In this document: piece after piece, positions 3,972 through 11,842 of the stretch
Numbering within the stretch: position 1 is the stretch's first letter
How the letters are laid out: each line of letters begins with the position of its first letter
Origin: a virus
Strand: one strand, 5' to 3'
Virus record (IMG/VR): IMGVR_UViG_3300029319_000264
Location: 1 to 32,115 of that record
DNA: 32,115 nucleotides
Notes under the pieces: model-generated
What the model was told of the DNA's origin: nothing
The model's database searches: none
Seen by the model: the letters and a program-made list of their open reading frames with translations, nothing else
Made by a program: the position numbers and the translations under genes

Positions 3972-5139
3972 TCACTAGCTCGGCAGTCTGGCCGGTGAAA
4001 TCTTCCCAGCGTTTTATTATCACGTCACAATATGCGGGGCTCAATTCCATGCCATAGCACTTGCGGCCTGTTTGCTCGCAAGCGATTAGGGTTGAGCCGG
4101 AGCCAAGGAACCCATCGAACACGATTCCGCTGGCCTGTACGTATTCCAGCACCTTGCCGACAAGTGCAGCGGGTTTTTGTGTTGGATGAACCCTCTTTTC
4201 CCTCTCGCCGCTTTGCACCATACCCATCCATACGTGGGTAAAGATTTTTGCGCGTTTATCGGCAGAGGTCCACGCAAGCTCAAAATCGGAAAAATTATCG
4301 TCCCACTGCCTACCCTTCTTATCCCAGACCAGCCAGCAGCGCGATTCCGGGAGGACCGTTGCGTAATAGTTACATCCCCATATAACGCCAGGGGCTTTTC
4401 TCGCGTGCATGTCTATAAACTTTTTCGCCGTGTCGGTTGAATCGTCGTTCATTATCGGCGCGTAGTTGTTGGCGAGCCCTGGTGCATTCGGGCGCGGGCC
4501 GAAAGACTTTGAACCGCCAGCCACCGAAACAGGAACAGCGTCGATGCCGTACGGGGGATCTGTATGAATGAAACCGAAAGGCTCTCCATCCATCAGCGCT
4601 GCTACATCCTCAGCGCTGGTACTATTCCCGCACATCAACCGGTGATCCCCAAGCTGCCAAATCTGCCCCGGTTGCGCGGTTGGATCTTCCGGCACCTCTG
4701 GCACTTCATCGGGGTCTGTATTGCCCTCGGTGATGCCAGTCACCTCATCGACTAACGCCGTTAGCTCTGCGTCACTAAAGCCCGCCGCCTCTACCAGCGC
4801 CTCGTCTTCAATCTGCAAAGCACTAAGCTGCTTTGCCAGCGCCTCTTCATCCCACTCGGCAAGCTCGCCCGTGCGGTTATCGGCTATCGCGTAAGCCGTA
4901 GCCTCTGAGCCCTCGAGCACGGTCTTGACGATGTTGATTGAATCCCAGCCCAGAGCTCGTGCGGCCGTGAGCGTGCCATTGCCCGCAATGACGATACCCT
5001 TCTCGTTAACCACGATGGGCTTCTGTTGCCCAAAGCGCCGAAGGCTCGACTTAATGGCGTCCAGGTTTTTCGAGTCATGCGCTCGAACGTTCGCCGGGTC
5101 GCAATCCAGCTCGTCTATCATCACCCGCTCAACCTGCAT
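3964..5139 (-). CDS. ParB-like nuclease domain fused to N4/N6 DNA methyltransferase
   Basis: The 391-residue protein joins two domains. Residues 1-100 are ParB/Srx-like, with GNGTLTAARALG at 53-64 as the ParB box. From about 160 onward it is an amino-group DNA methyltransferase with the catalytic DPPYG at 194-198, HPTQKP at 318-323, and the SAM-binding DGFLGSGST at 342-350. DPPY preceding the SAM loop is the beta-class order. In phages such fusions usually sit beside the terminase, as here, and probably protect DNA from host restriction or mark it. The target sequence cannot be read from the protein. The gene overlaps the upstream nuclease gene and TerS by about 10 bases each. Confidence 0.9.
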   Translation of the reverse strand: MQVERVMIDELDCDPANVRAHDSKNLDAIKSSLRRFGQQKPIVVNEKGIVIAGNGTLTAARALGWDSINIVKTVLEGSEATAYAIADNRTGELAEWDEEALAKQLSALQIEDEALVEAAGFSDAELTALVDEVTGITEGNTDPDEVPEVPEDPTAQPGQIWQLGDHRLMCGNSTSAEDVAALMDGEPFGFIHTDPPYGIDAVPVSVAGGSKSFGPRPNAPGLANNYAPIMNDDSTDTAKKFIDMHARKAPGVIWGCNYYATVLPESRCWLVWDKKGRQWDDNFSDFELAWTSADKRAKIFTHVWMGMVQSGEREKRVHPTQKPAALVGKVLEYVQASGIVFDGFLGSGSTLIACEQTGRKCYGMELSPAYCDVIIKRWEDFTGQTAELVNV

Positions 5140-5428
5140 TCAACACCTCAATAATTGGCTCCCGCGCTCTATCCTTCCACACCCAGACCTCCTTACTTGT
5201 CCCCGGTGGCACCTCAAACGCATTGAGCGCTTCCATCTCCACTGAGCCCGGCCTGCGATTCGCCTTCACCTGGACCAATCGCGTGCCATGCGGCCCGATT
5301 GCTATAACGTCCCATTCGCCCAAGCTCGCCGCCGAGCGCGTACACTTGTAGCCCACTGCCTCGAGCCGCTTCATAGTTTTAAGCTCAAGCCGAGTGCCCT
5401 TGGCTTTGCAGTTTTTGACGCGCCCCAT
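5129..5428 (-). CDS. Hjc-like PD-(D/E)XK nuclease, probable Holliday junction resolvase
   Basis: Starting at the ATG at 5428 gives a 99-residue protein with the layout of archaeal-type Hjc resolvases. It has a basic N-terminus, KGTRLE with E15, a GYKCTRSAASLGEWDVIAIG segment with D40, and VQVKANRR with Q53 and K55. E...D...Q-x-K is a PD-(D/E)XK active site in which Q replaces the usual acidic residue, as in some resolvase and VRR-NUC proteins. Debranching junctions before packaging would fit a position next to the terminase. A longer frame reaches 5494, but the TGATG overlap with the preceding gene favours 5428. Confidence 0.72.
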   Translation of the reverse strand: MGRVKNCKAKGTRLELKTMKRLEAVGYKCTRSAASLGEWDVIAIGPHGTRLVQVKANRRPGSVEMEALNAFEVPPGTSKEVWVWKDRAREPIIEVLNAG

Positions 5429-5634
5429 CAGTGAATCCAGACCGAGCCGCCGCCTAGCTCTGGCTCGTCGTTGTACAGCGTGCCCGTGCCCCATAACCGC
5501 TCGGTGTGGCTTCGGCCCCGCTGGTAAACCGCCCGCTCAATCGCTTTGACGGTATCCGACACCAGCGATTCGCTGGGCTGCTCGCCCTCAATCCAAGCCA
5601 CCACCCACTCATTCAATAGCTCGTAATCTTCCAT
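5428..5634 (-). CDS. Small acidic hypothetical protein, first gene of packaging operon
   Basis: The 68-residue product (MEDYELLNEWVVAWIEGEQ at the start) is not recognised. It is acidic at the N-terminus and probably helical to about residue 40, with a glycine-rich tail. A strong ribosome site, GGAGGGGG, lies seven bases before the ATG at 5634. The stop overlaps the nuclease start as TGATG. These signals make it a real gene and place it first in the packaging and head operon, right behind a promoter-like element at 5657-5686. Confidence 0.68.
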   Translation of the reverse strand: MEDYELLNEWVVAWIEGEQPSESLVSDTVKAIERAVYQRGRSHTERLWGTGTLYNDEPELGGGSVWIH

Positions 5635-5656
5635 CAGATCCCCCTCCGATGCCGAA

Positions 5657-5686
5657 AATATATCGTATTTTTACGCTCTCCCGCAA
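5657..5686 (-). promoter_or_regulatory. Candidate promoter for packaging/head operon
   Basis: On the minus strand TTGCGG (5686-5681) and TATATT (5662-5657) are 18 bases apart, a fair sigma70-like pair. They lie 22 bases before the first start codon of the operon (5634). A 6-bp inverted repeat overlaps them. Prediction from spacing only. Confidence 0.45.
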
Positions 5687-5693
5687 TCGTAAA
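5670..5693. promoter_or_regulatory. Inverted repeat spanning the -35 box of the packaging promoter
   Basis: TTTACG at 5670-5675 and CGTAAA at 5688-5693 are perfect inverted arms 12 bases apart. They enclose the predicted -35 box, which is the geometry of a repressor or activator site. Confidence 0.35.
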
Positions 5694-5718
5694 GGATAAA
5701 TTCACAATTACCCGTCAA

Positions 5719-5743
5719 GTCAAAAGCCCCCCTCCCTTTTGAC
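5719..5743. repeat. Stem-loop 1 of origin-like region (8-bp perfect stem)
   Basis: GTCAAAAG (5719-5726) pairs with CTTTTGAC (5736-5743) around a C-rich 9-base loop. A GGGGGG run just after it (5746-5751) could pair with the loop instead. It is the first of three hairpins in 150 bases that carry AAAGCCC at the 5' side of the loop. Confidence 0.6.
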
Positions 5744-5795
5744 ATGGGGGGAATAAACCCCAAATCGGTACCCATTAACCCCATGTGCAAGTCAA

Positions 5796-5819
5796 CCGGA
5801 AAGCCCCTACCCTTTCCGG
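5796..5819. repeat. Stem-loop 2 of origin-like region (8-bp perfect stem)
   Basis: CCGGAAAG (5796-5803) pairs with CTTTCCGG (5812-5819) around CCCCTACC. The stem sequence differs from stem-loop 1, but the AAAGCCCC at the loop edge is retained. Confidence 0.6.
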
Positions 5820-5841
5820 AAGCCCTGGCGTTATCTCGCGC

Positions 5842-5871
5842 CTACACCGAAAAGCCCTGATTTCGGTGTAG
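5842..5871. repeat. Stem-loop 3 of origin-like region (11-bp perfect stem)
   Basis: CTACACCGAAA (5842-5852) pairs perfectly with TTTCGGTGTAG (5861-5871) around AGCCCTGA. It is the longest perfect stem of the three and again has AAAGCCC entering the loop. Confidence 0.65.
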
Positions 5872-5894
5872 CAAAATCGACCGACGCCCTGCGT

Positions 5895-5908
5895 TAAACG
5901 TACGTTTA
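5895..5908. promoter_or_regulatory. 14-bp perfect palindrome, operator-like
   Basis: TAAACGTACGTTTA is its own reverse complement. Flanking GCGT (5891-5894) and ACGC (5911-5914) extend the symmetry with a two-base offset. It is a plausible dimer-binding site inside the gene-free region. Confidence 0.45.
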
Positions 5909-5928
5909 TGACGCGCCGCATTGTGTGT

Positions 5929-5967
5929 AATTCTAGCCAATTCTAGCCATGGCTTTTGGCTAGAATT
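5929..5967. repeat. Iteron cluster A: two direct and one inverted 10-mer
   Basis: AATTCTAGCC occurs at 5929-5938 and 5939-5948, and its reverse complement GGCTAGAATT at 5958-5967. The second and third copies form an 11-bp perfect stem (5939-5949 with 5957-5967) around TGGCTTT. The 10-base period is one helical turn, as in initiator-protein iterons. Confidence 0.7.
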
Positions 5968-6037
5968 ATGAGCAGAGCACAAGGCTGCAAGGTGTTGGTT
6001 TATATACTCTTTTTATAATTACTTCTTATCCTATACT

Positions 6038-6056
6038 AATTCTCGCCATTCTAGCC
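6038..6056. repeat. Iteron cluster B: two degenerate copies
   Basis: AATTCTCGCC (6038-6047) has one change from the cluster A unit, and ATTCTAGCC (6048-6056) lacks its first base. They sit at the end of an AT-rich stretch (about 5995-6040). Confidence 0.5.
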
Positions 6057-6101
6057 GGGGGGTACCCCCTCCCATTTTCCCAGAGGGGAGGGGTACCCCC
6101 T
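6057..6101. repeat. Paired GGGGTACCCC palindromes able to form a long hairpin
   Basis: GGGGGGTACCCCCT (6057-6070) and GGGGAGGGGTACCCCCT (6085-6101) are each nearly self-complementary and also nearly complementary to each other. About 14 bases, including CCCATTTTCCCAGA, separate them. Either two small cruciforms or one larger hairpin is possible. Confidence 0.5.
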
Positions 6102-6177
6102 GTGCAGAATGGACACAATTGCTAAAACAGGGGTTAAACCACTGAAAACGTTGATAATAATTATCGCCAAAAGTTTT

Positions 6178-6207
6178 GGCTAGAATTGGCTAGAATTGGC
6201 GACAATT
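6178..6207. repeat. Iteron cluster C: three tandem 10-mers
   Basis: GGCTAGAATT at 6178-6187 and 6188-6197 is followed by the variant GGCGACAATT at 6198-6207. The unit is the inverted form of cluster A. The 15-base near-palindrome GCCAAAAGTTTTGGC (6166-6180) overlaps the first unit. Confidence 0.68.
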
Positions 6208-6216
6208 GCCAGGATG

Positions 6217-6253
6217 GGGAGCCGCCTGGGTACCGGAATCGGCGGCGGCTCCC
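6217..6253. terminator. GC-rich hairpin at the end of the replication operon
   Basis: GGGAGCCGCC (6217-6226) pairs with GGCGGCTCCC (6244-6253) around a 17-base loop, 20 bases past the stop of the minus-strand reductase-like gene. There is no clear U-tract on the minus strand, so terminator function is inferred from position and stem strength. Confidence 0.45.
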
Positions 6254-6273
6254 GTCATTTTACCTGTTTTGAG

Positions 6274-7221
6274 CTACGGGGTAAACTCGCCGTCCTCGTC
6301 CGGAATATCACACAGCCCCCACATCTGACATCCTCGGTCTGATTCTGACTCAGGTGTAAAAAGCTGATATTGCTTGCCCCCCCTCGACGTCTTTGACCAC
6401 TTCACCACTTTGTCGATATCCCAATATCCCTTATTGTCTTTTGCCAAAAAAAACTTTGGCATCTGTTTATCTGCTTGCACTTCCTCGTCATTTTTTTGCC
6501 GTCTGATCTGAACGAGTTCTTCAACATCCCTCTCAAGATCTCGGATTAATTTAATCCTTTCGGGTGTATCTTCTGCCACGGCTCGAATCTCATCTTTTCG
6601 AGACATGATGCAGGGCCAACAGCCGACTCGTTTAGCCGGGTTTTTGTCCTTTAGATAAAGCGGAGCGGGTCTAAGGTTATGCTCTGCATGTATCGCCACA
6701 ACATCAGCGACCCGCCAAGTAATTAGCGGTCGCCAGGTGGAAAGCCCTTCAACTTTAAAGGGGCTATCGTCATCCCACTCCTCAAATCTTGAGCGTGCTA
6801 CACTTTCATGCGCCCTGATGCCGACTGCATTGATAGGAGGCTTTCCGTGTTTTTTTGCTATTTGCTTAACGAAGCTTTCTTGCGGCTTGATCTTCAGTTC
6901 AATCGTGCAGAATCGAAATCTACGCGACGGAAAAAATGCTTTTTTGCGCACTAGGTCTGGCATTCCCCCAGGGTATTTTTCAGATCTGACAATGGCTATT
7001 TCTCCGAATAATGGCCGCAGAACCTCGTTGACGTATTTTGTTAAATCACCATGCTCCCACCCTGTGTCTGCCATCACAAAATAAAGCGGATTGGTTTTTC
7101 TGATCTCCAGATTATGGATCAGATAAAGCGCCATGGCGGTTGAGTCTTTTCCACCGGAGATACTGGCAACAACTGGCCTTCCGCTCTCTTTCACAAATCT
7201 TGCCCATTTACTAATTTCCAT
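6274..7221 (-). CDS. PAPS-reductase / DndC-like PP-loop protein
   Basis: This 315-residue protein belongs to the PP-loop ATP pyrophosphatase superfamily. SISGGKDST (20-28) is the nucleotide-binding loop. RFRFCTIELKIKP (101-113) has the R..CT...K..P pattern shared by PAPS reductases and the DndC sulfur-transfer protein. Further cysteines lie in GCWPC (C201, C204) and near the C-terminus (C298, C304), so a metal or Fe-S cluster is possible. Its start overlaps the end of the prim-pol gene by 11 bases, with GGGGTG before the ATG. Many phages carry such a protein without a known substrate; sulfur-containing DNA or RNA modification is more plausible here than sulfate assimilation. Confidence 0.82.
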   Translation of the reverse strand: MEISKWARFVKESGRPVVASISGGKDSTAMALYLIHNLEIRKTNPLYFVMADTGWEHGDLTKYVNEVLRPLFGEIAIVRSEKYPGGMPDLVRKKAFFPSRRFRFCTIELKIKPQESFVKQIAKKHGKPPINAVGIRAHESVARSRFEEWDDDSPFKVEGLSTWRPLITWRVADVVAIHAEHNLRPAPLYLKDKNPAKRVGCWPCIMSRKDEIRAVAEDTPERIKLIRDLERDVEELVQIRRQKNDEEVQADKQMPKFFLAKDNKGYWDIDKVVKWSKTSRGGKQYQLFTPESESDRGCQMWGLCDIPDEDGEFTP

Positions 7222-9409
7222 GATTCACCCCTTCTGATTCGATAGCCACAAAAGCCTCTCGCTTTCGTCCTGCTCCCCGATGCCCAACCTCAACAAGCGC
7301 CACCTCCTGAGCATCCACTAGCGCGCGCATAATCTCCGCGTGCTCCCTGGGCTTGAGGTTTCGAAACTTGCGCTTCAGCTCTGCGGATGTGAGCCCGCGC
7401 TCACCTGCCCGCACAATGGCTGACAACATCGTTTGACGCTGCGCGCCAAATTGGCTCGAGGTTACCCGCTCAGATACTGCGCTCACCAGACGGTTGAACG
7501 AATGGGATGTGTAGTCTATCGCCCAGCGCATGGACTCGGCGTCAATCTCCTGACAGCACTTGCTCGAGCTGATGATTGCTGCCACCCGCATCGATATCTC
7601 AACCGCACGGGCAAGCAGGACATCAAGCCCCGAGTCTGCGAGCTGGCGGCGCCGCTTGACCGTCTCCGCTTCGAAAGCATCAATCAGATCGTAGGCTTCA
7701 TCTGAAAAACCCATCTCCGTAGGCTTGGGTGCTACATCATGAACGCCGCCGACATCAAAGACGCCGCCTTTTTTACGCATGTTCTTGGCCCACCGAACTA
7801 CCGCCATTGGCGGCTCAACTCGAGCCCTCCCGCGCCGCCTGGCCTGACACTCTGCGTCAGACTCAATCACGAGAAAGCGGCCTAACATCCCCGCCTCAAT
7901 ATCCGCGTCCCCGATAGCCGAGTAGAATTGCCTCGGCGTGGTCATCGCATAGACCGTAATGGCTGGGCTTACCACCTTGAGCCGCTCTGACTCGCTGCGC
8001 TGCTTTTCTGTCAGAGCCATGGTTGAATATGCCCTTGGGCGCAGCACACCATCGAGCCGCCCGAAAGCCTCGACAAGCACCGTGACCGCCTCTTGCAGTT
8101 GAGAGTTGCCGCTCGCTTGGCAAGCTTGCAGATACTTTCCAAACTCATCGATGATGCAGATGTGAGTTGGCCTGTCCCTGAGCTCTGAAAAAACAGCGCC
8201 CGGCGACGTATAGCCGCTGCCCCCTATGAGGTCACCGAGCCCAGCCGCCTCGAGCACCTTCTCAACCGCTTTTTTGCCGTATTCTTTACCGGTGCCTGAC
8301 TTGGCCACCGTCAAAAAATAGAGGCTTGTGCAATTGCTTTCGGTGGTGATGTATCGCCGCCCAAGCACTACTGAGCCGAGCGCGAGCGCTGACTGTATGG
8401 CCATATCTACATGGGGAGCCGGGGCTGTCTCCATATACCAATCGACAAGCGAGCCGAGCACCCCGGGCACTGAGTGAAGGTGCTCCGGCAGCCCGGTCTG
8501 CTTTGCGGGTTGCCTGAGCTTCACCGGGTCAACCGCAACTTGGATTGGCTCGGCTTCTGGGTTGTTTTGCTTGTGCGTCTTCCAAATGCTCCAGACAATC
8601 CTTCGAATCTCGGAATCCTCAAGCGGCTCTGGGTTTCTCGCGTTCCACTCTGCCAGCCGGTGGTAACACTGGGCCTGGTCAAGCCCCTCTTGAATCCACT
8701 GCCCGACCAGCGAAGCGCTAGATGCGTTACGCTCCCCCGGCAGAGCTGGCGAGCCGTCATGCGGCAGCCGCACAGATGATACGTCAAAGATGATATCTCT
8801 GTAATCCTTCTGAGCCGGGTTCACCTTGCCCTGAACCGCTTGATAGAGCTTCTCGAGCACTTTGGGCGAGCGATAAGCGATATCATCAAACTCATCAACA
8901 CCATCGCAAACCTCAAGGTCATACGCCGCACGCTTAACCCCATAGCTCACGAGCTTTTCGTCTTTGTCCGCTGTACGCACGCTGCCCGGTGCTACGACGT
9001 AAGACCCGCGCTCTGGGTCCCCCTGGGGTGAATGGAATAGGTCAATGCCCTGATTGATACGGCTAGCCAGCCGCGCTTTCGGGTCTGTTCTGAAATAGAG
9101 GTGCTTACCTCTCGGCGTGCTCACCTCGAAATTCGACCGCCCAACAATGGACCGAATCAACTCTTCTTTCGCCGGGTCATCAATATCAACAACAACAAGC
9201 CCCCGCCCCGTGCGGATGCCTAGGTTGATTTGCGGGTTCTCTTCGTCAATCTCTTCTATCTCCTCCTCTGACACGGTGTTACCCGCATCGAACCTGTTCC
9301 ATCCCTTGGTAATTACTTTGTTGGTGCCACGCTCCCCGCGCAGCACTCGACCGGGGAAAAGCTCAAAAAGCTTGCCCCAGTCTGCTGGTGTAAAATTCGC
9401 CATCATCAT
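7211..9409 (-). CDS. Bifunctional primase-polymerase / DUF3987-like helicase protein
   Basis: This is the main replication protein. The N-terminal prim-pol (AEP) domain has LGIRTGRGLVVVDIDDP with the catalytic DxD, then STPRGKHLYFR carrying the conserved His. A primase C-terminal-like helical segment follows (GERNASSASLVGQWI ... EIRRIVWSIWK). The second half is a P-loop ATPase with AKSGTGKEYGKK (Walker A) and ICIIDEFGK (Walker B), as in DUF3987 phage helicases. The end resembles a winged helix (GLTSAELKRKFRNL). Of three tandem ATGs at 9409, 9406 and 9403, all follow AGGGGG; 9409 is given, but 9406 or 9403 has better spacing. A TTG at 9439 is less likely. From 9409 the length is 732 residues. 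Confidence 0.9.
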   Translation of the reverse strand: MMMANFTPADWGKLFELFPGRVLRGERGTNKVITKGWNRFDAGNTVSEEEIEEIDEENPQINLGIRTGRGLVVVDIDDPAKEELIRSIVGRSNFEVSTPRGKHLYFRTDPKARLASRINQGIDLFHSPQGDPERGSYVVAPGSVRTADKDEKLVSYGVKRAAYDLEVCDGVDEFDDIAYRSPKVLEKLYQAVQGKVNPAQKDYRDIIFDVSSVRLPHDGSPALPGERNASSASLVGQWIQEGLDQAQCYHRLAEWNARNPEPLEDSEIRRIVWSIWKTHKQNNPEAEPIQVAVDPVKLRQPAKQTGLPEHLHSVPGVLGSLVDWYMETAPAPHVDMAIQSALALGSVVLGRRYITTESNCTSLYFLTVAKSGTGKEYGKKAVEKVLEAAGLGDLIGGSGYTSPGAVFSELRDRPTHICIIDEFGKYLQACQASGNSQLQEAVTVLVEAFGRLDGVLRPRAYSTMALTEKQRSESERLKVVSPAITVYAMTTPRQFYSAIGDADIEAGMLGRFLVIESDAECQARRRGRARVEPPMAVVRWAKNMRKKGGVFDVGGVHDVAPKPTEMGFSDEAYDLIDAFEAETVKRRRQLADSGLDVLLARAVEISMRVAAIISSSKCCQEIDAESMRWAIDYTSHSFNRLVSAVSERVTSSQFGAQRQTMLSAIVRAGERGLTSAELKRKFRNLKPREHAEIMRALVDAQEVALVEVGHRGAGRKREAFVAIESEGVNHGN

Positions 9410-9458
9410 TGCCCCCTGGCATATCTCTAGTTTTTTCAATTCAGTTGATATTGTTGAA

Positions 9459-10928: not shown

Positions 10929-11147
10929 ATGAGCATTCAGGCACAAAACACCGATGAAATTGTAGAGCGCCGCTGGCGTACAAGGTCTGAACTGATTGGT
11001 AGGTGGGGCTTTACATGGGACGAAATCAAGTCGAAGCCCCTTGATTGGCTTGAATCTACTTTGGCCGATGAGCAAGAAATGTGGGCCATTGGAGAAGCAG
11101 AGCGCCGGTCCGAGCAAGCTCTCTACGGATACGAATTGTCACGGTGA
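10929..11147 (+). CDS. Hypothetical early protein (72 aa)
   Basis: I do not recognise this 72-residue product. It is charged and probably helical (RRWRTRSELIGRWGFTWDEI, then ADEQEMWAIGEAERRSEQAL), rich in Trp and acidic residues. The reading frame is open further upstream to 10608, but that part lies inside the previous gene in another frame. The ATG at 10929 directly after the CGAA leader is the clear start. The stop is followed at once by the tandem hairpin element at 11152-11198. Confidence 0.72.
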   Translation: MSIQAQNTDEIVERRWRTRSELIGRWGFTWDEIKSKPLDWLESTLADEQEMWAIGEAERRSEQALYGYELSR

Positions 11148-11151
11148 TGGG

Positions 11152-11198
11152 TGCCCCTTCGGGGGCATTAAACCGCAGGCCCCGTCCAAAGCCGGGGC
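11152..11198 (+). repeat. Tandem hairpin element, copy 1
   Basis: The first stem is TGCCCC-TTCG-GGGGCA (11152-11167), closed by the very stable UUCG tetraloop. The second is GCCCCG (11179-11184) with CGGGGC (11193-11198) around TCCAAAGC. The element fills the gap between two genes, 21 bases before the next ATG. It may attenuate or process the transcript. Without a U-tract, a simple terminator is unlikely. Confidence 0.65.
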
Positions 11199-11417: not shown

Positions 11418-11789
11418 ATGATGACTAGAGCAATTTACACTTATCGATACCGAAGCGGAACCGAAACCAGAGAGTTTCGACTTTCAGAGCGCAGCCATGG
11501 AAAGTATGTGTTCCATCATATTGACCACAACGGCCAGCCTCACACCGGGCGTTACTTCACAGATAATCTTGAAAACGTGGACCGGTGGGTGTTTTCGCGC
11601 TTGGAGGAGCTTTACAGGGTGGACACTGTTTTTCCTGGTCGCGCCCCATCCTCATCCCTTTATGTCGATGTGCACTACCGAGACGGTCGCACATTTACCA
11701 TCAAGTGCAGCCTTCTGAGTATCGACACGTTTTACGACGGAGTAGTAGAAGGCCCCCGAGGGGCTCGTGTCATTTCCAAAAACTTCTAG
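11418..11789 (+). CDS. Hypothetical early protein (123 aa)
   Basis: I do not recognise this product. The start is rich in aromatic residues and likely beta-structured (AIYTYRYRSGTETREFRLS). A His-rich patch (YVFHHIDHNGQPHTG) and a C-terminal beta-like part (SLYVDVHYRDGRTFTIK) follow. No catalytic motif or membrane segment is visible. Two ATGs in tandem (11418, 11421) follow the CGAA leader. The stop is followed by the second tandem hairpin element. Confidence 0.72.
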   Translation: MMTRAIYTYRYRSGTETREFRLSERSHGKYVFHHIDHNGQPHTGRYFTDNLENVDRWVFSRLEELYRVDTVFPGRAPSSSLYVDVHYRDGRTFTIKCSLLSIDTFYDGVVEGPRGARVISKNF

Positions 11790-11797
11790 GTGATGGG

Positions 11798-11842
11798 TGC
11801 CCTTCGGGGCATTAAACCGCAAGCCCCGTCCAAAGCCGGGGC
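11798..11842 (+). repeat. Tandem hairpin element, copy 2
   Basis: This repeats the element at 11152-11198. TGCCC-TTCG-GGGCA (11798-11811) has lost one pair from both arms, so pairing is preserved. GCCCCG/CGGGGC (11823-11828 with 11837-11842) keeps the same TCCAAAGC loop. The bases between the stems are also conserved. Confidence 0.65.

Follow-up and report, generated by a model that had tools for sequence, protein, structure and literature searches.

Palindromes of two kinds in a probable iteron origin of a tailed phage and its relatives

To our knowledge, the origins of primase-polymerase phages have been little mapped. Stem-loop origins behind such primases are described for pRN1 and for phage BIP-1, and in the pRN family a variable stem-loop lies within conserved flanks (PMC4234260). 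The ssi sites of RSF1010 provide a precedent for stem-loop initiation behind primases of this sort (PMC4434180), and the primases of NrS-1 and pRN1 are reported to recognise GTG (PMC8718748).

The DNA analysed here (the window) is a linear IMG/VR record of 32,115 bases from a tailed phage. Its minus strand carries, in this order, genes for a C5-methyltransferase, a small ORF, a primase-polymerase and a PAPS-reductase-like protein, then an intergenic region, ORF68, ORF121, and the genes for a ParB/methyltransferase, TerS and TerL. The intergenic region (5635-6273, 639 nt) thus separates the primase-polymerase operon from the packaging genes, and its features are collected in Table 1 together with those of the adjacent genes. 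Iterons of the TTGGCTAGAATT type, set in 10-bp steps, flank the AT-rich stretch on both sides, and from this anatomy the region is probably an iteron origin. The GC skew showed no turn at the intergenic region, Rfam gave no family match there at gathering scores, and positions 5400-6300 had no match in the phage collection; the weak matches returned for H3-M of locus L117 against phages and for 5705-5885 against plasmids were taken as chance. PDB sequence searches gave no match, ORF121 resembled Pfam Hjc at E=0.08, below the cut-off, and the AlphaFold models were too poor for use (mean pLDDT 46 for ORF121 and 38 for the primase). In the open literature we found no description of the palindromes reported below, most subscription papers lying outside that coverage.

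Table 1. Features of the intergenic region of the window and of the genes around it.
Feature	Position	Strand	Remarks
ORF121, conserved small protein	5129..5494	-	12/14 records; weak Hjc-like signal only
ORF68, first gene downstream of the palindrome cluster	5428..5634	-	
H1 hairpin, GTCAAAAG / CCCCCCTCC / CTTTTGAC, GTCAA before	5719..5743	+	
M, ACATGG-N33-CCATGT, core CCCC..GG; the cluster's most conserved element	5742..5786	.	alignment A1
H2 hairpin, CCGGAAAG / CCCCTACC / CTTTCCGG, GTCAA before	5796..5819	+	
H3 inverted repeat, CTACACCGAAA / AGCCCTGA / TTTCGGTGTAG; TACACC-N16-GGTGTA	5842..5871	.	
Iteron cluster A (TTGGCTAGAATT family, 10-bp steps, cruciform)	5928..5968	.	
AT-rich stretch, possible unwinding element	5993..6052	.	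27% GC; second lowest among the 60-nt windows of the record
GGGGTACCCC-type inverted repeat inside the iteron region	6059..6100	.	
Iteron cluster, PAPS-side end of the intergenic region	6159..6207	.	
PAPS-reductase-like gene, separating primase from origin; not present in L007	6274..7221	-	
Primase-polymerase/helicase (Prim-Pol, PriCT_1, DUF3987)	7211..9439	-	Pfam above cut-offs; PHROG DNA primase and helicase families

Compared with the published accounts of these systems, the locus shares with RSF1010 ssiA and ssiB, the sites of the RepB' primase, short hairpins of about 20-25 nt beside what its anatomy suggests is an iteron origin, as well as an archaeo-eukaryotic-type primase with a helical (PriCT-like) domain; however, RSF1010 has one site per strand and up to four palindromes occur here. 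As in pRN1 and BIP-1 (ORF904-type), a primase-polymerase and helicase (Prim-Pol, PriCT_1, DUF3987) is encoded nearby and, in eight relatives, a stem-loop adjoins the 3' end of the replication operon. In contrast, the pRN1 stem-loop is essential and about 100 nt long, whereas the present elements measure 24-45 nt; iterons, not described for pRN1 in the accessible part of the source, are present here, and the cluster of the window lies on their far side. NrS-1 likewise has a phage primase-polymerase, which starts at specific template motifs, but TTTGGTTA is absent from the window, and the sole fit is the GTG at the M foot.

The preliminary description of this DNA had listed three consecutive stem-loops with different stems and the same AAAGCCC at the loop edge. 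Exact stems of 8, 8 and 11 bp are indeed present at 5719-5743, 5796-5819 and 5842-5871 (H1, H2 and H3). Positions 5700-5900 hold three exact hairpins (stem of at least 8, loop of 3-12), compared with a mean of 0.0235 and a maximum of 2 in 2000 dinucleotide shuffles, none of which gave three. Besides 5723, 5800 and 5851, AAAGCCC has only four further plus-strand sites in 32 kb, and the AAAGCCA loop reported for the iteron cruciform was found again on the minus strand (5939-5967). The 7-mer does stand at all three loops, but in H3 its register differs: AAAG belongs to the stem and CCC to the loop in H1 and H2, whereas only AAA is in the stem in H3, a shift by one. The idea of a constant loop on changing stems likewise holds for H1 and H2 and fails for H3, whose loop differs in every other copy. 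Since the H3 loop reads AAAGCCC in the window alone, we dropped the three-way loop identity for it; judged from the copies compared, AAAGCCC in H3 is a coincidence, the loop not being conserved. The three stem-loops are thus of two different kinds, the H1/H2 hairpins and the H3 inverted repeat. A 45-nt inverted repeat between H1 and H2, here called M, was missing from the earlier list.

The queries for relatives in viral contigs were four proteins, namely the primase, the ParB-methyltransferase, the PAPS reductase and ORF121, as well as DNA patterns of H3, H2, M and H1. We compared 14 records, several of them short fragments: G000 (the window), G001 = L006, G002 = L007, G003 = L009, G004 = L012, G005 = L114, G006 = L115, G007 = L117, G008 = L350, G009 = L351, G010 = L352/L382, G011 = L354, G012 = L355 and G013 = L356/L383. 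On the terminase strand the palindromes run H3-H2-M-H1 in the window and L007, H2-H3-M in L117, H2-M in L114, H3-M in L009, L012, L350, L351, L354 and L355, and M-H3 in G010; in G013, H1 is far from M, with direct repeats in between. A stem-loop lies directly downstream of the replication operon in eight relatives, where the first hairpin starts 4-7 nt past a stop codon, next to the 3' end of the operon, but not in the window and L007, where all the palindromes stand past the iterons, ahead of ORF68. The region is 86.5% identical between the window and L007 (M core 64%, H3 80%, H2 100%), and the neighbouring stretches (5635-5718 plus 5872-5927) are 95-98% identical. As read from these sequences, the arms, the lengths and some loops are held and the cores are not. 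All four palindromes are lacking in L115, which retains TGTGACACGACC, read as the right M arm and its flank (arm remnant TGTGAC); because of this remnant we take its state to be a loss and not an empty site. Presence, order and orientation vary among these uncultured phages, natural loss included, offering ready comparisons for the contribution of a stem-loop to an iteron origin. The iterons themselves (TTGGCTAGAATT, ACTTCTGTCC, AATACGCCGC and CACTACAAA; compared at window 5928-6207 and L012 1425-1680 and in L115, L117 and L383) differ completely between relatives, and the palindromes stay. Short repeats of the CGGCCCAA type occur beside M in L350, L355 and L114 (before M), and also in G013 (L383 near 5350), which has a different replicase.

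H1 and H2 have a common architecture, in which an AAAG/CTTT top encloses a C-rich stretch of 8-9 nt and the outer stems (GTCA- and CCGG-) are exchangeable. Hairpins of this type, defined by a stem of at least 6 ending in AAAG/CTTT and a loop of 6-11 with at least 70% C, number 2 in the window, compared with a mean of 0.015 in 200 whole-window shuffles. When 148 related loci were searched (1.11 Mb, partly redundant), such hairpins were confined to the origins of the window, L007, L114, L117 and G013. H1 is carried by the window, by L007 (24 nt, with a changed loop) and by G013, where it has a CCCACCCCC loop and the same GTCAA flank in the presence of a different replicase (L383 5935-5959); H2 is carried by the window, L007, L114 and L117. 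On the C-rich strand GTCAA directly precedes H1 in all its carriers (window, L007, G013) and H2 in the window and L007, and GTCG(T) stands before H2 in L114 and L117. Read on the terminase strand, the H2 loop has CCCC in L114 and L117 and ends in GGGG in the window and L007. The stem pattern CCGGAAAG-N4-14-CTTTCCGG is no marker by itself, being common with other loops among the listed viral and genome contig matches. The H1 stem pattern was found in five stretches of viral_contigs, with an origin setting in G013 only; the other four (gene context viewed for two of them) were read as chance or as a plain long hairpin.

H3 was found in 10 of the 14 origin regions, one copy having one changed arm base, and measures 28 nt in 10/10 copies with the spacing left free from 2 to 40. 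Its loop is not conserved, and the inner pairs are lost in several copies.

An exact M occurs once per record in 12 of the 14 records; one arm base is changed in L006, and M is absent altogether from L115. In the cellular genomes of two classes no M was found (0/369 and 0/385), and M is an exact sequence tag for this phage group. It is 45 nt long in all six loci found without use of its length (window, L007, L009, L012, L114 and L117), a count that omits the 6 of 12 exact copies found by the fixed-length pattern. Hardly any change is seen in its arms and in the CCC/GG core pairs, and the rest of the core changes. As reported for the pRN family, the M core is variable within conserved flanks between the window and L007. 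Selection on the fold, as proposed in the preliminary description, was not borne out: compensating changes, the absence of which that description had itself named as speaking against it, were absent, and the stems are conserved by sequence. A single pair of M was changed on both sides, which is at chance (420/500 shuffles reach 1), RNAalifold gave no compensatory pair for M, and a structure kept while the sequence changes, the pRN1/BIP-1 criterion, was not found for M. Folding summed over 13 M sequences was better than that of core-shuffled versions (0/300 reach the observed total), but at least three single sequences (L009, L354 and L352) do not fold better than shuffles. All 12 exact copies of M have a GTG overlapping the foot on one or both strands, and 7/12 have it on both. 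GTG was found within 13 nt 3' of H3 in 1 of 19 strand readings and within 13 nt 3' of H1 or H2 in 0 of 14, H1 and H2 being in this respect unlike the RSF1010 ssi sites as described. L114, L350 and L355 have the asymmetric core of M in the orientation opposite to that of the other loci. M lies upstream of the ORF121/ParB/terminase block in 13/13 loci, and in G010 and G013 divergent genes stand on either side of it.

We then looked for a phage protein distributed like M. Matches to the primase were found in 11/14 records, to ORF121 in 12/14 and to the ParB-methyltransferase in 6/14, and an HTH protein in 3 of the 18 loci examined; the ParB-methyltransferase was rejected as binding partner since 8/14 records, some of them fragments, gave no match. 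The replicases of G010 and G013 are of another type, with DUF5906, and unmatched to the window primase, and M is kept in both, together with H3 or H1. The TerS proteins form at least three groups: those of the window and L007 are 37% identical and H1-H3 and M are common to both, the TerS of G010 has no BLAST similarity and M is present, and that of L115 is 97% identical to the TerS of M-bearing L009. L115 and L114 have primases that share 97% identity, and L114 carries M and H2. Across these records no single tested phage protein tracks M, and a strict need for M by the primase or TerS does not seem to exist. Four cultured phages with primases 35-37% identical had none of these elements in the stretches read.

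Our preferred reading is tentative, with a chance slightly below even: on the comparisons above, the palindromes may serve the replication origin as accessory sites for single-strand initiation or loading, similar to those of RSF1010 or pRN1. An initiator would bind the iterons and melt the AT-rich stretch, and the palindromes would fold on the exposed single strands and mark the loading place of the primase/helicase or of a host priming protein. H1 and H2 would be recognised via the C-rich loop (G-rich on the opposite strand) and the GTC(AA) flank, and M via its arms. The elements would assist initiation and not carry it, because they are interchangeable and are dispensed with in at least one lineage. 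We favour this reading because of position, primase class and published precedents. Iterons, AT-rich DNA and the primase gene adjoin the palindromes; M is single-copy in 12 of the 14 records and missing from the cellular genomes; H1/H2-type hairpins are confined to origin regions; the M sequences, taken together, fold better than core-shuffled versions; GTG overlaps the foot of M; and the variable core of M (64%) sits in conserved flanks (95-98%). Against it stand L115, without palindromes despite 97% primase identity to L114, the presence of M with non-matching replicases in G010 and G013, the lack of compensatory changes, of GTG 3' of H1/H2 and of a turn in the GC skew, and the cultured phages with related primases in which the elements were not found. 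We stay below an even chance because the GTG rule fails for H1/H2, covariation is lacking, other replicases occur and the elements have been naturally lost. Rather unlikely in our view is a shared, replicase-independent origin module, in which interchangeable palindromes, their arms constant and their cores or stems exchangeable, would serve phages with different replicases and terminases alike. They would then be read by a host factor or a novel structure-specific protein, and the cores would be swapped as cassettes between close relatives.

The palindromes may be priming or protein-binding sites, both of which had been proposed. The main rival to the origin-site reading, somewhat unlikely by our estimate, is that a dimeric phage or host protein binds them as double-stranded inverted repeats, at the origin or at a packaging-operon promoter, the hairpins being incidental. 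It holds this place because of the fixed spacing and the use in both orientations: length is fixed and the spacer variable (H3 28 nt in 10/10, M 45 nt in six loci), covariation is lacking in M, both orientations of the M core are found with respect to the terminase genes, a pattern that fits a DNA site better than an RNA, and M is upstream of the ORF121/ParB/terminase block in 13/13 loci. However, the unrelated outer stems and similar loops of H1 and H2 are the reverse of what is expected of an operator, and no protein is common to all (ParB-methyltransferase 6/14 and ORF121 12/14 records, HTH 3/18 loci). A role in transcription, as terminators or as leader hairpins where the replication operon ends or ahead of the late operon, would agree with a first hairpin 4-7 nt past a stop codon in eight relatives and with a cluster that precedes ORF68 in the window. 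Yet no T-run follows any of H1-H3 or M in the window, for which reason intrinsic terminators were rejected, and a terminator scan of 5500-6400 called none of the four. The window cluster is moreover beyond the iterons, hundreds of nucleotides past the PAPS stop, and M lies between divergent genes in G010 and G013 and occurs in both orientations, all of which makes this explanation improbable.

A packaging site (pac or cos) read by TerS, another of the functions proposed earlier, would suit the position of the cluster between origin and terminase genes and the way in which both window ends are joined in L007, as in a circularly permuted or concatemeric genome. We rejected it as very improbable, there being no co-variation with TerS: the palindromes are kept with TerS proteins 37% identical (window/L007) and with the G010 TerS that lacks BLAST similarity, whereas M is missing from L115, although its TerS and that of L009, in which M is present, are 97% identical. 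There is also little probability that the palindromes are small mobile or neutral sequences, functionless and piling up in a tolerant intergenic region. Their presence and order do vary among the loci, and L115 is without the whole set, but each record has a single M rather than many, the M arms are invariant while the core changes, lengths are fixed, and the right-arm remnant in L115 (TGTGAC) looks like a loss rather than an empty site.

Some further observations were made on the genome and its relatives. Positions 6220-7423 of L007 bridge the left and right ends of the window over about 1.2 kb; since L007 joins these ends, a genome size of about 33.3 kb and a circularly permuted or concatemeric state are probable. 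The PAPS-reductase-like gene (window 6274-7221; L007 1093-1096) has been gained or lost between near relatives, and the primase match contains one in-frame TAG in G003, G009 and G012. Finally, two type-P5 twister ribozymes scoring above the Rfam gathering score lie on the plus strand of the window (11143-11196 and 11789-11840), about 650 nt apart within the small-gene region of the phage.
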